DNA from: a virus
Reading direction: 5' to 3' (one strand)
IMG/VR virus record: IMGVR_UViG_3300032331_004265
Location: 1 to 30,692 of that record
Length of the DNA stretch: 30,692 nucleotides
The notes below the pieces were generated by a model. The model was not told where the DNA came from, ran no database searches, and was given only the letters and a program-made list of their open reading frames with translations. The position numbers and the translations under genes were made by a program. Positions 2,148-29,768 of the stretch are shown in pieces (position 1 is the first letter of the stretch; every line of letters begins with the position of its first letter).

Positions 2148-2780
2148 ATGAACGTTGGGATACTATTAGCCGCAGGGCATAGCACCAGATTTGGTGGTTG
2201 TGTATCAAAAGTATTATATAAAATAAATAAAAAGCCAATAATACAATATGGAATCGATATATTTAATTGTCTAGAAGAGATTGTGATAGTTTCAAATTCC
2301 GATAATCATAAATATATTAAAAAATTAAATAAAAATAAAAAAGTTAAAATTCTGATTAATAATGTGAACAATAGACTGAAATCAATCCGAGTTGCTCTCG
2401 ATTATCTTCAAAAAAAAGATTTTGAAAATATAATTATACAAGACGCAGCCAGACCATATGTTGCAAAAGAAATGATTGAAAATCTTTTAGTTTCATCTAA
2501 AACATTTTTATATTCTCAGTATTATCTTAAACTTATAAACGGGTTAGTTAAAAAAACCGATGTTGGTTACGAGGTTGTAAATAGAGATAATTATATCGAA
2601 TTATGCACACCTCAAGTAATTGATTTTCATTTATACAATTTTATTTTCAAAAAATACATAGAAAAAAATACAACTTGTGAAGTACTACCCCTGATGGAAA
2701 AATTTAATATTAAATACAACCTTATAGAAGGTGATCAAAGATATCTAAGAAAAATAACCAAGATAAATGACATCTACTGA
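2148..2780 (+). CDS. IspD/TarI-type cytidylyltransferase
   Basis: The 210-residue protein opens with the nucleotidyltransferase signature LLAAGHSTRFG, followed by a Lys in SKVLYKINKKPI. It then has DAARPYV, TPQ and a C-terminal GDQRYLRKITKINDI that matches the usual G-D-x-x-N-x-K-x-T element of IspD. This family joins CTP to an alcohol phosphate: IspD makes CDP-methylerythritol, and TarI and the animal homologue make CDP-ribitol. Sequence alone does not separate these. Isoprenoid synthesis would be odd for one lone phage gene. The convergent neighbour carries a LicD domain, a family that uses CDP-activated donors, so a CDP-alditol product is my preferred inference. Its 3' end overlaps that neighbour's by 7 bases. 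Confidence 0.82.
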   Translation: MNVGILLAAGHSTRFGGCVSKVLYKINKKPIIQYGIDIFNCLEEIVIVSNSDNHKYIKKLNKNKKVKILINNVNNRLKSIRVALDYLQKKDFENIIIQDAARPYVAKEMIENLLVSSKTFLYSQYYLKLINGLVKKTDVGYEVVNRDNYIELCTPQVIDFHLYNFIFKKYIEKNTTCEVLPLMEKFNIKYNLIEGDQRYLRKITKINDIY

Positions 2781-5170
2781 GTCTTTAGGTTATTAAAAAA
2801 TGTATTAATAAGTTGATAACGATAATTTCTATCTGTTAATCCATAAAGCTTTTTGTTCAAAGATTCTAGAGACTTAATAAAAAGATCTAAATTCATTTCA
2901 TTGCTAATATTTGTGTTGTATTCAGCCAATCCAAAATCTATAAATGTTATTTTATTATTTAGAACCAATATATTTTGAAGCCAAAGTTCCGGATAAAAAA
3001 CTCCACATCTGTCCAGCTCATTAAATATTTTTGTTATTTGTGTTTGCCAATCTTTGGGTAAACTAAATTCATTGTATAAAGATTCTCCACAATAAGAAAG
3101 ATTAATTGTTAAGTTTTCTATATTATAGGATAATAATCTTGGAACAAAATCAAATTGTTGAAGATTTTTAAGTAATTCAATTTCTTTTAAAAATATATCT
3201 TTGCTATTTTCATTTTCATTTAAAGCCCACCTTAATTTTGGATTATATTTTTTAATTACGATATTACTATTTTTTAAATAGTAAGTGTTAGCAGTAGATC
3301 CAAATCTATAAGCCTTCCAATTTTCTTTATATTCTTCGTCAAAATAATTATGAAATTTAAAATTTTGTATAGTAAACAAAAGAGTGTTTCTTATTGCTAT
3401 TGATTGATCTTTAACATTTATGCCCTTTTTGCCAGCCTGTATAAAGTCTTGTAAATTCACCAAAAGATCCGTGTATTCTTTATGTGATGAATAAATTGAA
3501 TCATCGAAACAATAATCTTCTATATTTTGATTTGAGTTTTCTTTACAATAATCTATTCTTGTTATATAATCATAAATAACATCATACATCAGATTGAATG
3601 CTATCGTCTCGTTTCTGTCTTCATTGTCTGGCAAAGTTTTGTTTGCTAAGAACATTAAACATTCTTGAATCTTTTTTATTTTTTTCCTTATAGGTCCATA
3701 ATGCGGAGAGTTAAATATAGCTTGAAGATTGTTCTGAGTATTTGTCTCAAGATCTTTTTGATATACGGTATCTTCTATATTATAGATATTGAGTTGCTTA
3801 TGAAGATCGGAAATTAAAACATCGACCTGGTCTGTTATTGGGTACATATTTTTGAAAAGAAATGGAAGACATTTATTTCTTATTATATAACAATGCCCGG
3901 AATGAAACTCGTCCACAAACTTATAATAAGGCTCAGTATAAACTACATTTTTCCCAACACTATTTAAAAATACCATATCCCAATCATCTGGTATCATTTC
4001 TAAGTATTTGGAAATATTTCTTGTGTTTGTTACTGCTATGTCATCTTCAACTATAAACGTATAGTCAGAAAAATTTAAATATCCATATATCATAGCTCTT
4101 AAATGACTGCAGTAGCATCCAAGAGGTCCCTCTTGAATAAAAATATTTTTATCATCAATAACAGAAAACTCATCTACTTTAATGTCTGTTTTGACTATAT
4201 TTTCATTAAATTGTTTTAAAAATTTAAGTATATATGACAAATCTTTTTCAACAGACTCCTTGTTTTTACCATAGGTGCCCTTCAGATGAAAAAAGTTAGT
4301 TACAGATAATTTTTTTAATTCTTCTACTGTGTTTTCATATCTCTGTTTATTTTTTTCTAAATTAATTAGAATGCAATTAGATTGACAAGATTTTTTAATT
4401 AAGTTGGTTTCAATTGATTTGTGAAGATCTATTTTATCATAACATATATTTGTTGCATTTGATTCATATTGCAATATCTTTACATCAACACCATCTACAA
4501 CCTCTTGTCTTACTGATTTGTATTCATCCATTGTTATAATTCTATTTTTAACTAATTCTTCTTTTTTGTGAGAGTAGCGGCTAGATTTTAATGTTTGCAT
4601 ATATCCACTACCATAATTTAATTTTAAAAAATAGTGTGGATCTTTTGGAACCAATGTATTTATACCCAGAAATATTTTATTGTCAGCTGGAAAAAATTTA
4701 TCTGCATCCCACATTTTTTTAAAAAATAATATTTTATTATTGAAATTCTTTTTTTTGTATGTAAACAAGTCAATGAATGGCCACCTAAATGTTCCTTCGT
4801 TTAATATTTTATCTTTCCAACCATTGGCTTTTCCTGGAACTTCAACACCAATATCCTTAAAACAAAATCTAATCATGTTGGGAAATTTAGATAAAACAAC
4901 AACATCTTTGTGTTTTTCAAAAATATCTGGGAGTTTTTTTGAAATGCTATCGTCAACCAACAAGTCTAAATCATCGTCCCAAGGTATAAAATCATTATGT
5001 CGAGCATAACCTAATAGAGTCCCAGATATAAGACAATAATTGATATTACACTCAGTTAGTATATCAATAGTCTTTTTAAGAAGTTGTATGGCTATTGTTT
5101 TGTGTTCACCAAATCCATTTTTTTCATTGAAATATGTTTGCACTATTTCTTTTAGATTTCTTTGAACCAT
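2774..5170 (-). CDS. Three-module LicD phosphotransferase + GT25 glycosyltransferase + kinase-like protein
   Basis: The protein has 798 residues from ATG 5170. Residues about 25-200 are LicD-like: a helix, ISGTLLGYARHNDFIPWDDD and the DDDLD acidic motif (65-69), as in enzymes moving phosphocholine or ribitol phosphate from CDP donors to sugars. Residues about 265-480 resemble GT25: INLEKNKQRYENT, GPLGCYCSHLRA and FIVEDD (EDD at 375-377). Residues about 620-798 look like a kinase fold: Lys640 in IVIKKY, Glu663, a catalytic loop PELWLQN with Glu728 and Asn733, and an intact DFG at 745-747. The loop Asp is Glu and the HRD-type His is absent, so activity is uncertain. A TTG at 5224 would extend the frame but overlap the upstream gene by 43 bases. 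ATG 5170 lies 11 bases past that gene's stop, after a weak GATGAG site. It is co-directional with the PA14 gene. Confidence 0.82.
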   Translation of the reverse strand: MVQRNLKEIVQTYFNEKNGFGEHKTIAIQLLKKTIDILTECNINYCLISGTLLGYARHNDFIPWDDDLDLLVDDSISKKLPDIFEKHKDVVVLSKFPNMIRFCFKDIGVEVPGKANGWKDKILNEGTFRWPFIDLFTYKKKNFNNKILFFKKMWDADKFFPADNKIFLGINTLVPKDPHYFLKLNYGSGYMQTLKSSRYSHKKEELVKNRIITMDEYKSVRQEVVDGVDVKILQYESNATNICYDKIDLHKSIETNLIKKSCQSNCILINLEKNKQRYENTVEELKKLSVTNFFHLKGTYGKNKESVEKDLSYILKFLKQFNENIVKTDIKVDEFSVIDDKNIFIQEGPLGCYCSHLRAMIYGYLNFSDYTFIVEDDIAVTNTRNISKYLEMIPDDWDMVFLNSVGKNVVYTEPYYKFVDEFHSGHCYIIRNKCLPFLFKNMYPITDQVDVLISDLHKQLNIYNIEDTVYQKDLETNTQNNLQAIFNSPHYGPIRKKIKKIQECLMFLANKTLPDNEDRNETIAFNLMYDVIYDYITRIDYCKENSNQNIEDYCFDDSIYSSHKEYTDLLVNLQDFIQAGKKGINVKDQSIAIRNTLLFTIQNFKFHNYFDEEYKENWKAYRFGSTANTYYLKNSNIVIKKYNPKLRWALNENENSKDIFLKEIELLKNLQQFDFVPRLLSYNIENLTINLSYCGESLYNEFSLPKDWQTQITKIFNELDRCGVFYPELWLQNILVLNNKITFIDFGLAEYNTNISNEMNLDLFIKSLESLNKKLYGLTDRNYRYQLINTFFNNLKTQ

Positions 5171-5181
5171 AAGCTCATCTT

Positions 5182-6375
5182 TCACGGGAGAGCTGAACCA
5201 CGCCAAGCATTCGAATACCCCCAATTATTTGTTTTGCTAATTGTTGAAGTAGAATAACTTAAATTAAATCCAGTTGATCCACTATTAAAACTAGATGGCT
5301 GTGCGTAAACTACCAAGAAGGGCAAAAAGTCTCCGGAAACTAAATTGATATTTACAGATTGTTCACTAGTAACGCTGCCTAAGTCATAATTACTCATTGT
5401 TGGAGATAAAGCATGAGACCCCAGCCATAAATAGCTTCCGCTATCCGCAGATAGATAAAAAGTATGAGTTTCTGCAGTTGTTGCTAAAAAATATCCTTGT
5501 ATTTTAATAACCCCAGCTCCCCAATTTGTTAGATTTTGACCAACAACTGTTCCCGGACTATACACAACACTTACCGTACTGTGTGTGCTAAAATATTCAA
5601 TTGTATTGTCCCACCCACTAGCATATATATAAGCCGTATATCCGGCACTTAAACCGCCTGGATCTGGATATGTTATCGGATATGGAGTATTTGTCGGAGT
5701 ATTTGTTTGTGTTGGTGTTGGCGTTGGTGTTGGCGTTGGTGTTGGCGTTGATGTTGGCGTTGATGTTGGCGTTGATGTTGGCGTTAGTGCTATTGATTTA
5801 ACACAAATATTATTAACGCCTTGTTCGCCTGTTAAAAGTGCAAAAAATACATGTAGTGGTTGTGTTACTGAATTTGATGAAGTGTAAATTAAATTGTTAT
5901 TTTGATAATACTTAACGTTTGTTCCATCATAATCTACTCTCCATACATCAGTAGGTAGTGTACTTATAGAACCCGGAACATTAACCTGACCTCCATATTC
6001 ATATATTTCCAAAAATCCATTTTGTATATAAAGTCCATAGGTTGTATTTAAATAGGTGGTAGGACCCCCAGTTGGATTATAAGAAAATCCACCCATTAAA
6101 TAATTACCAGTAGTTGAAGATCTGAATGTTACCGAAACTGGACTGGTGTATGTTTCTGTAGAATATGCTGATCCACTCCACCCACCACCTGGGTTCTTAA
6201 TCGCAGAATTTCCTGTTGTAACGGCATCTACACCCACTAAATTTATTGTTTTGCAATCTGAAGAGCTAAAAGATAATATTTGATTTGTGATTTTATACAG
6301 AGGTCTTTTCCAAAATCTGTGAACAAGACCTTTGGTTAAATCATAATGACCATGAGATTTAAAGTATTTTGTCAT
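5182..6375 (-). CDS. PA14-domain protein with Thr-Pro linker (probable virion glycan-binding protein)
   Basis: The 397-residue protein has three parts. Residues 1-195 are beta-rich and lectin-like, with many Thr/Ser/Gly (GLYIQNGFLEIYEYGG, WRVDYDGTNVKYYQNNNLIY), compatible with a concanavalin-type fold. Residues 198-232 are a Thr-Pro/Thr-Ser repeat stalk. Residues about 243-385 look like a PA14 domain (KIQGYFLATTAETHTFYLSADSGSYLWLG), a fold that often binds carbohydrate. There is no signal peptide. It lies 4 bases after the 270-residue gene and 11 bases before the LicD fusion gene, so it is probably in one transcript with both. The likely role is a surface or tail protein that contacts host or self glycans. 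The PA14 call rests on pattern recognition only. Confidence 0.72.
   Translation of the reverse strand: MTKYFKSHGHYDLTKGLVHRFWKRPLYKITNQILSFSSSDCKTINLVGVDAVTTGNSAIKNPGGGWSGSAYSTETYTSPVSVTFRSSTTGNYLMGGFSYNPTGGPTTYLNTTYGLYIQNGFLEIYEYGGQVNVPGSISTLPTDVWRVDYDGTNVKYYQNNNLIYTSSNSVTQPLHVFFALLTGEQGVNNICVKSIALTPTSTPTSTPTSTPTPTPTPTPTPTQTNTPTNTPYPITYPDPGGLSAGYTAYIYASGWDNTIEYFSTHSTVSVVYSPGTVVGQNLTNWGAGVIKIQGYFLATTAETHTFYLSADSGSYLWLGSHALSPTMSNYDLGSVTSEQSVNINLVSGDFLPFLVVYAQPSSFNSGSTGFNLSYSTSTISKTNNWGYSNAWRGSALP
5680..5784 (-). repeat. Thr-Pro/Thr-Ser coding repeat (linker)
   Basis: This low-complexity stretch of GTTGGC/GTTGGT-type hexamers on the plus strand encodes alternating Thr-Pro with Ser and Asn variants on the minus strand. 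It joins the N-terminal and PA14 domains of the protein at 5182..6375. The hexamer unit keeps frame on expansion. Similar linkers occur at 28833..29264 and 30423..30668. Confidence 0.9.
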
Positions 6376-9591: not shown

Positions 9592-9951
9592 ATGCCTCAG
9601 ATTATAGACTTTGAAACCATGCTCCCAGAGAAACTTCTTAATATCTTTTGTTTTGCAAGAGACGAAGATTATTTCGTCGATGATGACGATGATGAAGAAG
9701 AAGATTATAATGATTACGAAGATGATTACGACGACGACGAAGAAGATGAAGATGAAGATGAAGATGAAGATGAAGATGATGACTGGGGCGACGGGGGAGA
9801 ATGGAAAGAAGTCGGGGACGATGATGAGGATGAGGATGAAGATTGGGACGATGAAGAGGATGAAGAGGATGATGAGGATGATTGGGACGATGAGGATGAA
9901 GAAGACGAAGAGGACGATTGGGATGAGGATGAAGAAGATGATGATGACTAA
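9592..9951 (+). CDS. Extremely acidic Asp/Glu-rich protein
   Basis: The 119-residue protein has a short ordinary start (MPQIIDFETMLPEKLLNIFCFARDED; residues 1-26). The remaining ~95 residues are overwhelmingly Asp and Glu, with periodic Trp in DDW/EDDW contexts and a few Tyr. GAT/GAA/GAC/GAG codons make the DNA nearly repetitive, especially at 9742..9780. An AAGAAAGGAAAGG Shine-Dalgarno precedes the ATG, and a strong terminator follows, so it is probably expressed on its own at a high level. Known proteins of such composition mimic DNA, buffer cations, or chaperone basic proteins. Which applies here cannot be told. The sparse aromatic residues spaced along the acidic chain argue against pure coding noise. 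It lies immediately upstream of the terminase gene. Confidence 0.88.
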   Translation: MPQIIDFETMLPEKLLNIFCFARDEDYFVDDDDDEEEDYNDYEDDYDDDEEDEDEDEDEDEDDDWGDGGEWKEVGDDDEDEDEDWDDEEDEEDDEDDWDDEDEEDEEDDWDEDEEDDDD

Positions 9952-14695: not shown

Positions 14696-15754
14696 ATGGG
14701 AATTTTTGAGAATTTTCAAAAGTGGGCGGAAGATCGTTTTGATGGCGATATAATCGTCAAGGGAAACGAGATAATAATAAACTCAATATTTTCGGATGAC
14801 ACAAAATATCATTTATGGTGCAGCCCCTCAGGAGGAAAAACCGGACGCAAGAATGGTGTGTTTCATTGTTTCAAAACTGATAAAAAGGGCTCACTGCCAA
14901 AATTAATACAAACTGTAGATAAATGTAGTTTTGAAAAAGCCATGTGCGTATTGCACGGTAGGGCATCAATCTCGGAGTTAGAGGATAAGCTTTTTGATTT
15001 TTTTGAAAACTTAGATGAAAATCCTACCACTGAGATCGTTGAACAAAAAAAAATTCAACTAACACTTCCAGAAGGAAGTTGTTCCATAAACTCTTTGCCA
15101 AAAAATAATTTTTGGAGAAATTTAGCCACTGAATATCTTGCTAAAAGAAAAATACCAACAGATGGATTGTATATTTGTAAAACAGCTCCATACAAAGCAA
15201 GGATAATAATCCCGTATTATGACCCAGAAGGAAATCTTTTTTATTGGAATGGCAGGCATGTTGGTAATTCGAAAATTAGATATTTAGGTCCACCCAAAGA
15301 AGTTGGAGTGGGGAAATCTGACGTTTTATTTTTTGCAGGGGGAAATTGGGCTGATAAAAACGAAGAGATATACCTTTGCGAAGGAGAATTTGACGCTTTG
15401 AGTCTTTTCTGCAGCGGCTTAAACGGAGTTGCTTGCGGTGGCAAAAATCTAAGTGAAAAACAAATGAACTTAATAAAAGACTACAAAATCGTTATATGCC
15501 TAGATAATGATAAAGCCGGACTTGGTGGAATGACAGCAATGACAGACATGATTAATAAAAATATTGAATCAAAAAATCTAAAAGAACGATTAATGTTCGT
15601 CAGTCCACACAAATCTTGTAAAGACTGGAACGAAATGTTTGTCAAAGAAGGTCCGTCTGTTTTAAAAAATTACATACTTGCCACAAAGAAAAATTTAGAT
15701 TTTCAAGCACCTATGGGCACAGGTGGTGACTACTTTAGAATGAAAGGAATATAA
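14696..15754 (+). CDS. DnaG-like DNA primase with Toprim domain
   Basis: The 352-residue protein resembles a short DnaG. Residues about 38-60 hold a degenerate zinc-ribbon-like segment (YHLWCSPSGG...GVFHCFKTD) with His39, Cys42, His57 and Cys58 as possible ligands. Residues about 140-220 form the primase N-terminal core (ATEYLAKRKIP, ARIIIPYYDPEGNLFYWNGR). The Toprim motifs are YLCEGEFDAL (Glu229) and VICLDNDKAG (Asp270, Asp272), and KDWNEM follows at 309-314. There is no helicase domain. It should make RNA primers for phage replication. The next gene starts 2 bases after its stop. Confidence 0.88.
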   Translation: MGIFENFQKWAEDRFDGDIIVKGNEIIINSIFSDDTKYHLWCSPSGGKTGRKNGVFHCFKTDKKGSLPKLIQTVDKCSFEKAMCVLHGRASISELEDKLFDFFENLDENPTTEIVEQKKIQLTLPEGSCSINSLPKNNFWRNLATEYLAKRKIPTDGLYICKTAPYKARIIIPYYDPEGNLFYWNGRHVGNSKIRYLGPPKEVGVGKSDVLFFAGGNWADKNEEIYLCEGEFDALSLFCSGLNGVACGGKNLSEKQMNLIKDYKIVICLDNDKAGLGGMTAMTDMINKNIESKNLKERLMFVSPHKSCKDWNEMFVKEGPSVLKNYILATKKNLDFQAPMGTGGDYFRMKGI

Positions 15755-15756
15755 AT

Positions 15757-16116
15757 ATGAATCCAAATTTAGAAAAATTTAAGCATTTTATTGGCAAACC
15801 AATAACTGTTTTTACCATTCACACAGGTAGAAATTTCACAGAAACTCAATTCAATGACTACTTCACAGGCATTTGTCAAGCAGTTCACATGGATGGAATA
15901 GAAACCATACACCCAATCACAAATTGTAAAAACTTCTTCTTTTTTAACAATATTGTTGGTATCTGTGAAGAGCAACAACTAGACCCAGAAAATCCTGAAC
16001 ATCAAGAAATCATAAAAGAAATAAGTAAAGATACACCTATTGAACAAAGTGATTTGCAACCAAATAATTCTGTGAACATAGATATAGATCTATTGAATAA
16101 AATAATAGCCAAATGA
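15757..16116 (+). CDS. Small hypothetical protein co-transcribed with primase
   Basis: The 119-residue protein follows the primase by 2 bases and uses an AAAGGAATATAAAT ribosome site. Residues 10-75 look like a small beta barrel (GKPITVFTIHTGRNF, DYFTGICQAVHMDGIETIHPI, NFFFFNNIVGICEE), in layout like Sm/Hfq or OB-type folds. The last 45 residues are acidic and probably disordered or helical. A replication-accessory role is suggested only by position. It ends 8 bases before the convergent gene's stop. Confidence 0.7.
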   Translation: MNPNLEKFKHFIGKPITVFTIHTGRNFTETQFNDYFTGICQAVHMDGIETIHPITNCKNFFFFNNIVGICEEQQLDPENPEHQEIIKEISKDTPIEQSDLQPNNSVNIDIDLLNKIIAK

Positions 16117-16124
16117 TATATTAT

Positions 16125-17198
16125 TTATTCTTGATCATCTGGGTCACCACCCCCAGCTACGTATTGTGAAATCAAATCATCAATTGGATCATTTGTTCTC
16201 TTATTTACCATCAATCGGAATTGTCTCTCCATTGTTTCGTTTATTAACCACTTCATCCAATCTTCCTGGTCTTTGGGGTCTACACTTCCAGGTATCGCTT
16301 TATCAGGATATTTTTTAAATATTTCTTCACTATGATCTAGTATGTCTTTAAAAGATTCTTTAAAATCTTTTTCGAAATTTTCGAAATTTCCAACAAATTC
16401 TTCTGTTGGAATATACTCACTTGGGGGTTGATCACCGTTTTTTCCAACATACAACTCCTGAAACAGCTCGCCACCTTTATGCTTGCTTCTTCGCAACCTC
16501 TTCCAAACTTCTTTTTTAATTTTATTCACAGCTTCAGAAGATGTGATGTTTTCCCATTTATCTCCCGTCCAATATATTCTGGGATCTGGTTTTCTTCCGG
16601 GACGGCGAGTTTCCCTTTCCGCTGCCACTAGGTCTGAATTTACCGAACCTCCTGACCTGTTTGGTATACCGGACATTTCTTCGGTGCCGCTACTGCCACT
16701 GGGTTTTTCAACTTCATCACGAACCTCTCCACGACTTTCTCCATTATTATTATCGTTTGAAGTATGCACTGCTGAAAATTGTCTAATAACTTCTTGTTTA
16801 AACTTACTAGCCCAATCATCAATTATTCTAAATAGCTTTAGCTTTTTTAAATTTTCAGACTCTGTCTCCAGGTCCTCATTTATAACAGACAAATTATATT
16901 CAAGTTTATTGTATTGTTCTTTGATAAAGTTATACTGCGACAAAGTCAATCTTCTGGACTCTTTTTTTGTATCATCTTCACGTCCAAGTGCACCAAACTT
17001 ATTTTTATATACATATGGATTATCTGGGTTATTTCCACCCATTACTGTGTTGTGCCACCAGTTTTTCATTCTATCCCAAACGCCTGGTAAAATACCAGTC
17101 TTTGCTGGCTTGTATTGAACAACAATAAGATCTTTTTTCAATTGTGTTACAAAGTCATCTATTAACTTTGTAAGTTTATCTAATTCTACTTTTTCCAT
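16125..17198 (-). CDS. Hypothetical hydrophilic protein with disordered middle
   Basis: The 357-residue protein has an N-terminal helical domain with a Trp-rich turn (GVWDRMKNWWHNTVMGG). A coiled segment follows (residues about 80-140), then a Ser/Gly/Glu/Arg-rich disordered linker (about 145-205). A second charged domain contains YWTGDKWENIT, KEVWKRLRRSKHKGGELF and several Glu/Lys helices, and the tail is GGGDPDDQE. There is no signal peptide or membrane segment. It is the last gene of the actin-like ATPase run. The start lacks a Shine-Dalgarno and lies right after an ATATATA stretch that overlaps the end of the upstream gene. The family is not recognised. Confidence 0.72.
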   Translation of the reverse strand: MEKVELDKLTKLIDDFVTQLKKDLIVVQYKPAKTGILPGVWDRMKNWWHNTVMGGNNPDNPYVYKNKFGALGREDDTKKESRRLTLSQYNFIKEQYNKLEYNLSVINEDLETESENLKKLKLFRIIDDWASKFKQEVIRQFSAVHTSNDNNNGESRGEVRDEVEKPSGSSGTEEMSGIPNRSGGSVNSDLVAAERETRRPGRKPDPRIYWTGDKWENITSSEAVNKIKKEVWKRLRRSKHKGGELFQELYVGKNGDQPPSEYIPTEEFVGNFENFEKDFKESFKDILDHSEEIFKKYPDKAIPGSVDPKDQEDWMKWLINETMERQFRLMVNKRTNDPIDDLISQYVAGGGDPDDQE

Positions 17199-17209
17199 GA
17201 TAATATATA

Positions 17210-17668
17210 TTATTTCTTATCAGAAATATATTCGTTTATTTTCTTCAAACTCATTAAACAAGAGTCAAATCTATGAAAATCGCTTGTTAAATACTCGAAA
17301 GCTAGTTCGTCAAATTTATCGCTAACTTCATCGCTTTCTACTTCAAAATATATATATTTGCCTTTTTTTCCAAGAACCTTATATTTATGCATTAATATGT
17401 AGGCTGCAACTCCGAGATCGGTAGCAAATCTAATTTTGCCTGTTTCGTTGAAGTTGTATTCTCTAATTTTCTTCAGACTCATTATGCAGGAGTCAAATCT
17501 GTGAAACTCGCTGCTTAGATAATCCAAGCATATTTCATCAAATTTCTCTTCGTCTTTTTCTTCTATATCAAAAAGAACTTCTTTGCCTCTCCTTCCTGCC
17601 AATTTATAATTGTGCATTAGGACATAAGAAGCAGTTCCGAGATCTTCTACGCTCTTTATTTTTTGCAT
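17210..17668 (-). CDS. Tandem-duplicated DUF5659-like protein
   Basis: The 152-residue protein is two copies of one ~70-residue unit. The first runs from about residue 5 (VEDLGTASYVLMHNYKLAG) and the second from about 78 (ATDLGVAAYILMHKYKVLG). Each continues through a strand pair (VLFDIEE / IYFEVES), then F-D-E, then YLSSEFHRFDSC-SLKKI or YLTSDFHRFDSC-SLKKI. The pattern 'DL..AAYLLM.GYKL......F.F......YL...F.RFD....LK.L' is one I associate with DUF5659, normally a single short unit. Biochemical function is unknown. It lies between the actin-like ATPase and the 357-residue protein. TAATAT sits 5 bases before the ATG and no Shine-Dalgarno is present. Confidence 0.78.
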   Translation of the reverse strand: MQKIKSVEDLGTASYVLMHNYKLAGRRGKEVLFDIEEKDEEKFDEICLDYLSSEFHRFDSCIMSLKKIREYNFNETGKIRFATDLGVAAYILMHKYKVLGKKGKYIYFEVESDEVSDKFDELAFEYLTSDFHRFDSCLMSLKKINEYISDKK

Positions 17669-17694
17669 AAACTATATTAGTTAAAAATTTAAAA

Positions 17695-18702
17695 TTAATT
17701 AGCAGCTTCGGAAGCTAACAAGCAGCCTCTGGCAACACTATAAAGTGGATCTTTTGGCTGAATAACCTCGCCTATCTTGATAGTAAGGTCTGCTTCTTTT
17801 AAGCATTGTGCTAACATATCTTTAAAGCCTGGAGGGCTGGATGTGCCGCCCGCAATAACGAAGTCTATCTCTTGATCTGTCTTAACACTTTTAGATGTAT
17901 TCTGAAGACCTTTTTTGATCCCAGTAACAGTATGCTCTAGCATTATTCTATATTGCGTTTGTATGGCTCTTTCTACAAGGGTGGTGGCTGGTTTGGTTAA
18001 ATCTACCTTTGTTTTTTCTTTATTTATAAAAGTAGTACTTTCGCCAGTAGCTTTGGCAGCCATTTTATCAATCCAGTCTCCACTGTTGACAATAGAAAAT
18101 GAAAATAAAGGGTTTCCAAACATTGCAAAACAAACATTTACCATACCCCCACCAAAACTCATTCCCACGCCTGTAAAGGCTTTGTGAGATAGTTCCGCAT
18201 AAACTAAGGCTAATGCTTCATTTATCGGTCTGGGGTCAAGTGTAAAGCCTTGTTCTGATTTATAGGCTTTGAATATAGCCTCTAATATTTTTCCATGATA
18301 TTCAGCATCTGTTTCTTCGTTTATTGCGTTTGCTGGAACACAGTAATATAATATTTCCTTATCTTTGCTTATTTCTCCAATTAAACTATGGATCATAATG
18401 CTTAATATTTGAAAAGCATCCTTTTCTTTCGGATTCACGCAGCCAGATGTCATAGGTCTCTTTAACTCTAGTCCGCTCATTGTGTAAGCCATATTAACCG
18501 CTGCTTCGCCCAAGGCGTATGCTACTTTTTCTCTTTCAATCAGAGGAACGCCTGCATTTTTCATCATGTTGAAGACAAATTTGTTTTCCAAAGGCATCTC
18601 CAGAAAAGCATTTATTTCTTTTTTATAAGTAAAATTATTTGATTCATCTCTTTTGCAGCAGACGAGCGTATAAGTTCCAACGTCAAATCCAACTCTCGAC
18701 AT
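17695..18702 (-). CDS. Actin-like ATPase (ParM/MreB/Hsp70 superfamily)
   Basis: The 335-residue protein has the actin-fold nucleotide motifs: phosphate-1 GFDVGTYTLV (5-14), connect-1 NEALALVYAE with Glu162, phosphate-2 VGMSFGGGMVNV (179-190) and adenosine FVIAGGTSSPPG (281-292). In most actin-fold ATPases the phosphate-2 loop begins with Asp (D-x-G-G-G-T); here it is Ser182, so hydrolysis may be altered. Filament-forming homologues segregate DNA or position phage replication centres. The ribosome site GGGTGGTTAATT overlaps the end of the 77-residue gene, which ends 2 bases upstream. This tight link makes the small protein a candidate partner. Confidence 0.85.
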   Translation of the reverse strand: MSRVGFDVGTYTLVCCKRDESNNFTYKKEINAFLEMPLENKFVFNMMKNAGVPLIEREKVAYALGEAAVNMAYTMSGLELKRPMTSGCVNPKEKDAFQILSIMIHSLIGEISKDKEILYYCVPANAINEETDAEYHGKILEAIFKAYKSEQGFTLDPRPINEALALVYAELSHKAFTGVGMSFGGGMVNVCFAMFGNPLFSFSIVNSGDWIDKMAAKATGESTTFINKEKTKVDLTKPATTLVERAIQTQYRIMLEHTVTGIKKGLQNTSKSVKTDQEIDFVIAGGTSSPPGFKDMLAQCLKEADLTIKIGEVIQPKDPLYSVARGCLLASEAAN

Positions 18703-18704
18703 AA

Positions 18705-18938
18705 TTAACCACCCTTTCCAAAATTGATCTTCTCAGATGCAAAGTCTGGGATTGCCCAAGCTACTTTATCTTCTGCATCCACTGAAGATTCTTTTTTATT
18801 CATCACTCCCTTTACATCGCCGGATACGGCTTCTATAGAGCCATTCATGTTTATGTTTAAATCTAAAGTTATAGAGACCTTAAGCTCTCCATCCTTAGTT
18901 ACAATCTTAACATCACTTGGTCTTATTAGTTGTGCCAT
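18705..18938 (-). CDS. Small conserved-looking partner gene of the actin-like ATPase
   Basis: The 77-residue protein has a beta-hairpin start (VKIVTKDGELKVSITLDLNINMNG), an acidic middle, and a distinct C-terminal motif (WAIPDFASEKINFGKGG). An AGGTTATAAATT ribosome site precedes the ATG. Two bases separate its stop from the ATPase start. The short conserved-looking tail could be a peptide that docks on the filament, as adaptor tails do in other actin-like systems; that is inference. The family is not recognised. Confidence 0.68.
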   Translation of the reverse strand: MAQLIRPSDVKIVTKDGELKVSITLDLNINMNGSIEAVSGDVKGVMNKKESSVDAEDKVAWAIPDFASEKINFGKGG

Positions 18939-18948
18939 AATTTATAAC

Positions 18949-19524
18949 CTATTTCTTGGTAGATTCAGTTACTACTATTGATGATATGACCTGCAAAGAA
19001 ACAGAATCGATACCTGAGTATTCCTCTGGCAACTTAGCTTCTATTTTCTGGATATTTAAGTCGCCTACATTAAAAACCTGAACTTCTTTTGATCCAAGAT
19101 CGAAAACAGCACTATTTAAACCATTCAATCTTATTTGAACAGAGCCTTCTGATTGATTTGCTATTTGAACAAAGTCTGCAAAGCTATTTGTATCACTTTG
19201 TATATCGATAATATTATCGGTAAAATCAGAGCCTGGCTCTACTGTTATTTTATATACTTTTGGTATGTTGTTTGTATCAGCTTTGTCATACCACGCCGAA
19301 CCATCATCCTCCAGAATTATTAAAAAGGCTAAATCTGCCGAGGTATTGGGATAGACATATCTTTTCCAATAATTAGAACCAGAGAATATTTCTCCATCTT
19401 TTAATTCCCGACTAATTCTATCTGGTCCCATGGCATATACACTTCTTTGAATGCTTGTGCCATTGGGATCATTATCTAACAATCCTTGTGTTCCGTTATT
19501 TAATTTTACTTGAAATGTGCTCAT
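18949..19524 (-). CDS. Beta-rich hypothetical protein, first in the actin-like operon
   Basis: The 191-residue protein is predominantly beta: FQVKLNNGTQGLL, ADLAFLIILEDDGSAWYD, PKVYKITVEPGSDF, VQIRLNGLNSAVFDLGSKEVQVFNVGDL, and IDSVSLQVISSIVVT. No signal peptide is present. It could be a virion protein or a scaffold for the ATPase system, and I cannot name a family. No Shine-Dalgarno precedes the ATG. TATATA lies 6 bases before it, so transcription would be expected to start at the ATG itself. It diverges from the small plus-strand gene at 19578 across 53 bp. Confidence 0.68.
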   Translation of the reverse strand: MSTFQVKLNNGTQGLLDNDPNGTSIQRSVYAMGPDRISRELKDGEIFSGSNYWKRYVYPNTSADLAFLIILEDDGSAWYDKADTNNIPKVYKITVEPGSDFTDNIIDIQSDTNSFADFVQIANQSEGSVQIRLNGLNSAVFDLGSKEVQVFNVGDLNIQKIEAKLPEEYSGIDSVSLQVISSIVVTESTKK

Positions 19525-27863: not shown

Positions 27864-29768
27864 TTATGTTGAATAAAGAGAAACAGTCACGCTACTGCTA
27901 GATATTACAAATTTACCATTTCCGTAAGCCACAGAGGTCCAAGTTGCAGAAACAGGTAGGTTGATCCCACTCCAATTTAATCCATCCATAGAAAAAGCCG
28001 CAATCGACGAAGGACCACCGACAGCAATCCATTTTCCATCACCAAAGGCTATGCTCGTCCAATTTAAAGTAGCTGGCATTCTCAAGGACGTCCAGCTAAC
28101 TCCATCAACACTGGTGGCTGCGTAAAGACCATTGCAAACTGCAACAAACCGCCCAGCCCCATATGCAACACCATTCCACACAGCCGAAAAGGGAAGCGTT
28201 GATGCCGTCCAATTTATTTGATTTGTGGATCTGATGCATTTGTTTGTAAGTATAGAAGAAGTTGTGAGATTTCCATTTAATCCTCTGCCAACAGCAACAG
28301 ATATGGTAGGACTATTTGCTATTCCTCTAACTTCACACAAATCAGCATGAGCCGTCGCCCCAGCCCAACCATCTGTGAATGTGAGCCCAGATATTGCACC
28401 TGCAGCCCAATTTGCGCCGTCAACAGAATAATTTAGTATTACATTTTTAGGACTTCCAAGTCCCCATGTTCCTAAAAATCCAAAAAACCTACCATTCAGA
28501 AAAGAAATTTCTTGACAACCAGGAATACCGTGTGAATTAGATGGAGTTCCTATGCTGAACGAGCCTGTAGCTATTGCATAAGGCAAATAAGATTGGGCAG
28601 ACCAATTACTACTATCAGGGCTAGTATAGGGGAAACATCTTATTGCGCCCGAACTGATAGATGCCGCCTTCCAAGCCAACCAATTTCCCCCGCCAAACAC
28701 AGGAGTATTAGACATAACAACCGAGCTAGCTTGCCATGTAATTCCATCTGAAGACATGGAGCCCCCGCGACCTGAAAATTTATTTCCCCAAAATCCAATC
28801 TCAATAGGAGCGTTTGCCCACAAATTCCAAATAGGAGGAGTGGCAGTCGGCGTAGGAGTAGCAGTTGGAGTTCTTGTTGGAGTTGGAGTAGCAGTTGAAG
28901 TTCTTGTTGGAGTTGGAGTAGCAGTTGGAGTTCTTGTTGGAGTTGGAGTAGCAGTTGGAGTTCTTGTTGGTGTGGCTGTAGCGGTTGGTGTTCTTGTTGG
29001 AGTTGGGGTGGCAGTAGCAGTGGCGGTTGGCGTTGGGGTGGCAGTTGGAGTTCTTGTTGGTGTGGCTGTAGCGGTTGGTGTAGGAGTAGCCGTTGGAGTT
29101 CTTGTTGGCGTTGGTGTAGCAGTTGGAGTAGCAGTGGCGGTTGGCGTTGGGGTGGCAGTAGCAGTGGCGGTTGGCGTTGGGGTGGCAGTAGCAGTGGCGG
29201 TTGGCGTTGGTGTCGGTGTTGGTGGGTATGTAAATCCTGGGGGTGTCGCAGATGGCGTTGGAGTAATGCCTGGAGGTAGACCTAGGTCATACCCAACAGA
29301 CTTACTTACAAACAAATATGTTTTTTCGTTTTGTAAATTAGAATTAATCGAAGATCCTGGATTCCAAGAAAGCAGACTAAGACCAGAATTAGATTCCATA
29401 TAAACTGCAGATAATTTATTTTTAATTTCAAGGCTTAAGTTGTTTAAATTAAAGTTTGCGTTATTTCTATAAGTTATAAATTGATATGTTTTTGAAACAT
29501 ATCCATTTTGATAAGGAATAAGTGTTTCTATGTCTATGGAATATGATGAGAAGCCTATATTGTTACTGATAATATAATATGTTTTTCCACTCTCAAGTAA
29601 ACTAAAATTAGATATCTGATTTGGACGCCAAGATAAAAGAGAAGATCCACTTGGTGATTCGGTTAGTATTGAAGAGATTTTATTTTTAGTCTCTGTGGGT
29701 AAAAGATTGAGAGAATAATTCTCGCCAGAGTAAGAAAAAAATTGATTTATTTTTGTTATAACCAACAT
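27864..29768 (-). CDS. Propeller-type appendage protein on a Thr-Pro stalk
   Basis: The 634-residue protein starts at ATG 29768 after AGGTATTTAAT. Residues about 8-80 and 93-163 are two copies of one domain (shared ...[19 protein letters not shown]... and ...[19 protein letters not shown]..., each followed by KTYYIISN or KTYLFVSK). Residues 169-312 are a long Thr-Pro-Ala-Arg stalk. Residues 313-634 carry blades of the type S-x-DG-x-x-W-x-x-x-x-x-P, then W-x-x-V-A-Y-G-x-G-x-F-V-A-V, seen for example in [29 protein letters not shown] and [11 protein letters not shown]. That pattern is typical of sialidase-like beta-propellers in phage tail or receptor-binding proteins. It probably presents a host-binding head at the end of a stalk. 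Enzymatic residues were not identified. Confidence 0.82.
28833..29264 (-). repeat. Thr-Pro stalk minisatellite with 30-bp units
   Basis: The region encodes residues 169-312 of the 634-residue protein as alternating Thr with Pro, Ala or Arg. At DNA level four adjacent 30-bp units (28861..28890, 28891..28920, 28921..28950, 28951..28980) are nearly identical; the second has one change and the last diverges at its end. Looser variants continue to about 29230. All units preserve frame, so stalk length can change by slippage or recombination. Confidence 0.92.

Follow-up and report, generated by a model that had tools for sequence, protein, structure and literature searches.

A phage gene set with IspD-family, LicD, and GT25-kinase-like components that may add a phospho-alcohol to a glycan

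Some viral proteins join domains that suggest glycan modification, and an enzyme that could supply their activated donor may be encoded nearby. Do these proteins act in one pathway? We asked this question for a locus in a 30,692-base virus fragment from IMG/VR, which we will call the window. The window comes from a large bacterial virus and encodes a terminase (by profile matches), so its source is a tailed phage. A first-pass annotation of this DNA noticed a 798-residue protein with a LicD module, a GT25 module, and a kinase-like fold, as well as a converging gene for an IspD/TarI-type enzyme. Profile searches support all of these modules (Table 1), and because the two reading frames overlap tail to tail at 2774-2780, the genes are indeed convergent. 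The annotation also proposed that they form a single phospho-glycan pathway. We give about an even chance to a version of this idea, in which a mobile cassette of late phage genes decorates a glycan with a CDP-activated phospho-alcohol, using a joint pathway to make the donor and to transfer it.

Table 1. Locations of the features discussed, in window coordinates.
Feature	Position	Strand	Evidence
LicD + GT25 + helical linker + kinase-like fusion, 798 aa	2774..5170	-	ORF; relatives match nearly full length
LicD nucleotidyltransferase-fold phosphotransferase module, residues 1-213	4532..5170	-	PF04991
Internal ATG (Met214), fusion seam	4529..4531	-	Equals the start of the GT25-kinase ORF in relatives
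GT25 glycosyltransferase module, residues ~264-490, end approximate	3701..4381	-	PF01755, phrog_2835
Helical linker, residues ~491-605, boundaries approximate	3356..3700	-	Secondary structure, low-confidence model
Kinase-like domain, residues 613-798	2777..3334	-	Bud32 profile; solved kinases by sequence
IspD-family cytidylyltransferase, 210 aa	2148..2780	+	PF01128; comparison to E. coli IspD residues; relatives
GLEYA/PA14-like TPTP-rich upstream gene, candidate acceptor	5182..6375	-	PF10528, phrog_19691

Linkage of the genes in three phage lineages

The fusion is a single reading frame that runs from LicD through GT25 to the kinase-like domain. An upstream TTG start would lengthen the protein to 816 residues, but we prefer the ATG because of the relatives and because it leaves an 11-nt gap after the stop codon of the preceding gene, which is on the same strand. 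Promoter-like matches around the cassette were not in excess of those in shuffled sequences. There was an excess of terminator-like matches, mostly within the upstream gene, in its TP-repeat DNA.

We found homologs on three other viral contigs: 3300036985_009454 (18.8 kb), 3300023184_009074 (83 kb), and 3300023174_000033 (464 kb). (We label the relatives' loci as L003, L004, and L006; L004 is from the 464 kb phage.) These proteins are about 46-58% identical to those of the window, and the homology to the fusion, at 52-55% identity, is nearly full length. Since 3300036985_009454 and 3300023184_009074 are close to each other, the three contigs represent two further lineages. In all three relatives, LicD has an ORF to itself, which overlaps the GT25-kinase ORF where the latter starts. 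Only in the window are the two fused, and there Met214 marks the point at which the relatives' GT25-kinase ORF begins. The fusion may have originated as an assembly error, an explanation that we set aside; the seam between LicD and GT25 keeps the frame and aligns with the relatives on both sides.

In all four contigs, and hence in three lineages, the IspD gene is tail to tail with the LicD/GT25-kinase set. In L003 and L006, an RgpF-like gene (PF05045) separates them; otherwise, either no gene or a weakly hydroxylase-like one intervenes. In other words, licD and ispD adjoin in the window (at 2148-5170) and are separated by at most one gene in L003, L004, and L006. Because the flanks differ between lineages, we think that the set travels as a unit: a weak terminase match (30%) is the only other similarity between the genes of the window and the sampled DNA of the relatives. 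The first-pass annotation had asked if homologous phages keep these genes together, and they do. It had also suggested a search for the same fusion beside IspD or TarI, which recovered the gene set in three contigs but the LicD fusion in the window alone.

To see how specific this linkage is, we scanned viral contigs for the LicD motif. The scan found 26 contigs, 3 of which belong to this family. The other 23 all score above the LicD cut-off, and just one of them (G075) has an IspD gene, which lies ~1 kb from LicD with an SDR-like ORF in between, so that the three are in a row. The GT25-kinase protein was absent from the examined DNA of these 23 contigs. Since IspD accompanies LicD in only 1 of 23 other viral contigs, its pairing with LicD/GT25-kinase is specific. 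If we count by lineage, the linkage to IspD is 3/3 versus 1/23 (p ~0.0015, hypergeometric test by hand), but this value is only a guide, as the contigs are fragmentary and some are near duplicates. Overall, a joint pathway is well evidenced because the set has remained linked in three phage lineages whose flanking genes differ.

Wider searches gave few additional candidates. There were no relatives of the fusion in the phages of INPHARED (by tblastn). IspD did have matches there, in the MaAM05 record and in unannotated "Bacteriophage sp." records, but we rejected these, as the contigs look bacterial where inspected. An alignment scan of genome contigs for bacterial relatives of the GT25-kinase protein found none, which is no proof of absence because the scan used short peptide patterns. 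Sensitivity mattered for IspD as well: scanning viral contigs with the window's IspD alone found nothing, and a three-row alignment was needed to find its relatives.

We also noticed other genes in the relatives. In L006, a phage CTP synthase (14824-16524(-)) is ~1.8 kb from the IspD gene; it might be a linked supply of CTP or just part of nucleotide metabolism. L004 encodes a FolD-type THF dehydrogenase/cyclohydrolase that is fused to a GT25 domain (17433-19196(+)). Two more proteins from L004 (2113-3738(-) and 4398-5711(-)) have C-termini that resemble, by eye, the sorting signals of type IX secretion, which suggests that the host of the 464 kb phage is from the Bacteroidota.

Catalytic motifs and the IspD pocket

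The LicD module is a member of PF04991 (E = 2.4e-11 and 44.6 bits, with a curated cut-off of 22.6; 63 bits if the pieces are joined), and we predict that it transfers a phospho-alcohol from a CDP donor. Its motif, GTLLGYARHNDFIPWDDDLD, begins at residue 50 and retains the pattern GTLLG...RH...IPWDDDLD. The aspartates of the DDDxD motif (D65-D67 and D69, within IPWDDDLD) are invariant in the relatives. The closest NCBIfam model is the mf1 cholinephosphotransferase (NF045866), which matches at 8.8e-16 but under its cut-off. Among solved structures, fukutin-related protein (FKRP) comes closest, at 4.9e-5.

The GT25 module matches PF01755 at 8.5e-9 in the window (29.5 bits, cut-off 24) and at 38-40 bits in the relatives. 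PF01755 is absent from the window's listed matches in two other Pfam scans. The module also matches phrog_2835 (5.7e-15), and its acidic metal/donor motif (EDD, residues 375-377) is invariant in three members.

Judging by sequence, the kinase-like domain resembles the Bud32, RIO, and ArkI kinases. Its match to NCBIfam's Bud32 model (1.8e-9, 37.4 bits) is well below the curated cut-off of 125 bits, so we consider it to be a relative with the kinase fold and not a Bud32. Among solved kinases, it matches Ark1 (3.4e-5) and TTK. The recognizable motifs are the FGSTA loop (at 623), K640, E663, the YPELWLQN loop, N733, and the DFG (at 745). Of these, the lysine, the alpha-C glutamate, the catalytic-loop asparagine, and the DFG aspartate (K640, E663, N733, and D745) are conserved with the relatives. 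So, the kinase-like module of the first-pass annotation has the expected fold match and motifs, but the catalytic-loop aspartate is replaced by Glu728, and every relative has a glutamate as well. This change could leave the domain inactive. On the other hand, ArkI has activity even though its catalytic loop is not HRD (HGQ in TkArkI; PMC9095486), so Glu728 does not prove that the kinase is dead.

Structure prediction, which had been proposed as a check on the folds, gave a partial answer. AlphaFold reached a pLDDT of 45 for the complete fusion (from a 7-row alignment) and 49 for the kinase domain alone (from a 4-row alignment). When we ran Foldseek with the low-confidence kinase model, kinases were among the best 50 hits, with Ark1 first, but because the TM-scores were ~0.3, we treat this result as consistent with the sequence searches and no more. 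There were no POMK chains among the listed matches to solved structures, either from the sequence searches or in Foldseek's best 50.

The converging gene's product clearly belongs to the IspD family (PF01128: 2e-18, 67.4 bits, cut-off 27). It retains the catalytic residues R14, K21, D99, R102, R146, and K202, which are equivalent to R20, K27, D106, R109, R157, and K213 of E. coli IspD. However, its pocket is altered: T140 of IspD is replaced by G132, and N211 is replaced by Y199. All four phage enzymes have Gly and Tyr at these positions. The T189-D190-E191 stretch has changed across the clade, with E or C at the position of D190 (the alignment is ambiguous by one column). From structures of IspD, we take T140 and D190 to contact the alditol phosphate. 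Canonical IspD and TarI both retain T140 and N211. Because of these changes in the specificity pocket, the donor cannot be named.

Models for specific functions agree that this enzyme is divergent. It scores 87.4 bits against the equivalog for IspD of the MEP pathway (TIGR00453), which has a cut-off of 181.3, and 40.0 bits against the TarI subfamily (NF001183), which has a cut-off of 166. In the tree of IspD proteins, the phage enzymes form a clean clade (100/100) with a long stem (length 1.95). The best tree places this clade with the IspD-SDR group, but the support (57/75) is not firm. Placement as sister to TarI was rejected (AU test, p = 0.006), while placement as sister to canonical IspD was not (p = 0.13).

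A proposed pathway and its alternatives

The domains, the catalytic motifs (which are intact except for the kinase's Glu), and the linkage in three lineages point to a shared pathway, and we predict the order of its steps from the protein families. The IspD-family enzyme would join a small alcohol phosphate to CTP, which would give a CDP-activated donor. LicD would move the phospho-alcohol part onto a glycan as a phosphodiester, as in FKRP, LicD, and mf1. The GT25 domain would build or cap the glycan with a sugar, and the kinase-like domain might phosphorylate the sugar or the acceptor, or else it might be an ATP-binding regulator. The fusion in the window, or the translational overlap in the relatives, would confine the final steps to a single enzyme or complex. 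The idea of a single phospho-glycan pathway fares well for its modules, its mostly intact motifs, and its linkage, and less well for a CDP-alditol product: the pocket differs from both IspD and TarI.

What would be decorated? The acceptor is probably a virion surface protein that is made late. This is because, in the window, the set adjoins a gene of virion-structural type, whose product matches PF10528 (3e-12) and phrog_19691 ("virion structural protein", 2.3e-8), and in L006 the set is ~6 kb downstream of the tail sheath and tube genes. Neither the fusion nor the IspD-like protein has a clear transmembrane segment (by a crude hydropathy scan), and a soluble cytosolic enzyme could equally act on precursors of host surface glycans.

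Elsewhere in the window, 27864-29768(-) encodes a putative surface protein with a long Thr-Pro/Ala repeat tract, which is a candidate for O-glycosylation. A 119-aa protein (9592-9951(+)) is composed almost entirely of Asp and Glu plus Trp and Gly. The protein at 17695-18702(-) matches Volactin, an archaeal family of actins (PF25216, 9e-66), although this is a phage.

The main rival is that the same chemistry modifies a different acceptor: the host's O-antigen, capsule, or another envelope glycan would be altered, which would block superinfection. We think that this is possible, if somewhat unlikely. The glycosyltransferase clusters of jumbo phages are usually understood in this way (PMC7824862), as is LicD in the Flandersviridae (PMC8008677). 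Also, bacterial LicD-IspD-(IspD-SDR) rows are found in surface polysaccharide loci, and the RgpF-like gene in L003 and L006 would fit with polysaccharide synthesis. But late structural neighbors (in the window) and tail genes (in L006) make a poor site for genes for early exclusion, and we recognized no polymerase, flippase, or lipid-linked glycosyltransferase among the examined neighbors.

A fuller version of the preferred pathway would be specific to viruses. An IspD with a new substrate would make a CDP donor that is unlike those of the MEP or ribitol pathways, LicD and GT25 would add the donor and a sugar to the TP-rich virion surface protein, and a kinase similar to ArkI or Bud32, with its Glu loop, would add or regulate a phosphate step. 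We consider this version rather unlikely. If it is true, then a virus would have a part-by-part counterpart of the dystroglycan system.

It is decidedly unlikely that this is a true CDP-ribitol pathway, a functional viral match to ISPD with FKTN/FKRP. FKRP is a relative of LicD, the IspD family includes enzymes that make CDP-ribitol, and the phage clade falls (not firmly) with the IspD-SDR group. But sistership to TarI was rejected, and T140, N211, and the T189-E191 region are altered in every phage member, while TarI keeps T140 and N211. Furthermore, we found no gene for an SDR or ADH_N reductase in the window or in its three relatives, including the 464 kb contig, and hence we see no virus-made supply of ribitol-5-phosphate. 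(The host could provide the substrate for the IspD-like enzyme.)

Could the IspD-like gene instead serve isoprenoid synthesis, via the MEP pathway, with its location beside LicD/GT25-kinase being incidental? The best full-length NCBIfam models are for IspD, and the tree allows a sister relationship to canonical IspD. However, the scores are about half of the IspD cut-off, pocket residues T140, D190, and N211 are changed, and the linkage to LicD/GT25-kinase is preserved in three lineages, so we consider this highly unlikely. Least probable of all, and by our estimate very improbable, is that the cassette hypermodifies phage DNA instead of a protein or a surface glycan: phage YerA41 encodes an IspD-SDR protein close to glycosyltransferases, and its thymidine apparently carries an oligosaccharide of ~1 kDa (PMC9023294), but no LicD, GT25, or kinase fusion is listed for that region, and among our contigs only the 464 kb relative has a gene of the thymidylate synthase family, which looks ordinary by its score. 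We also considered activation of phosphonates by PntC-type enzymes (PMC6697681) and set this aside.

Comparison with known systems

The first-pass annotation described its pathway as undescribed, which overstates the case for licD and ispD. Benler et al. (2021, PMC8008677) published adjacent licD and ispD genes for the Flandersviridae, a group of tailed gut phages, and interpreted them as having separate functions in teichoic acid and isoprenoid metabolism. That pair resembles the window in having LicD-family and IspD-family genes side by side, but it lies in the replication module, with no GT25 or kinase reported in the text consulted, whereas the window's set is beside structural genes. A limited search of the open-access literature found no LicD-GT25-kinase protein, and the GT25-kinase fusion with an altered activating enzyme appears to be undescribed. 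The new elements are the GT25-kinase protein and its conserved association with IspD and LicD (three lineages), together with the window's fusion and the changes to the pocket of IspD.

Among kinases, ArkI and Bud32/RIO share their fold with the window's domain, which differs in that its loop contains Glu728, its DFG is complete, and it is fused to glycan enzymes. The parallel to dystroglycan that was suggested at the outset holds for IspD and LicD, including the match to FKRP, but not for the kinase, which is similar to Bud32/RIO/ArkI and has no POMK among its listed matches. Therefore we view it as a parallel by parts and not by descent. To our knowledge, GT25 is not part of the alpha-dystroglycan core. 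In mammals, the CDP-ribitol used by FKTN/FKRP comes from ISPD, and some bacteria encode ISPD-LicD fusions (PMC4873967). As in the alpha-dystroglycan set of ISPD, FKTN/FKRP, and POMK (PMC4873967), an IspD-fold enzyme would feed a LicD-fold phosphotransferase in the phage, but the window offers no evidence of ribitol or of shared descent.

Similar pairings are known from bacteria and other phages. Clostridial rows of LicD, IspD, and IspD-SDR (L033) and Bcs1-type enzymes also have LicD beside IspD-family genes, probably for adding ribitol phosphate to surface polymers; the phage IspD differs in lacking a reductase partner and in its pocket. In an 88.6 kb phage (L017, 9965-13146(+)), an IspD-SDR fusion adjoins a protein that combines two LicD motifs with a GT2 domain. 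This phage is from a different lineage than the window, with GT2 instead of GT25, an SDR, and no kinase. Together with G075, it represents independent pairings, by phages, of IspD with LicD chemistries. The IspD-SDR protein of YerA41 (L022, 12040-13407(+)) lies amid glycosyltransferase-like genes (for its DNA sugar, see PMC9023294).

If our proposal is correct, then phages produce activated phospho-alcohol donors for themselves and use them to decorate glycans, and two gene families that have been seen separately in phage genomes are joined in one pathway. The locus would also be a compact, three-gene system for testing how LicD chooses its donor and its acceptor. More broadly, ispD and licD neighbors elsewhere among phages, which have been interpreted as genes for isoprenoid and teichoic acid functions, would then be better understood as one donor-and-transfer pair.
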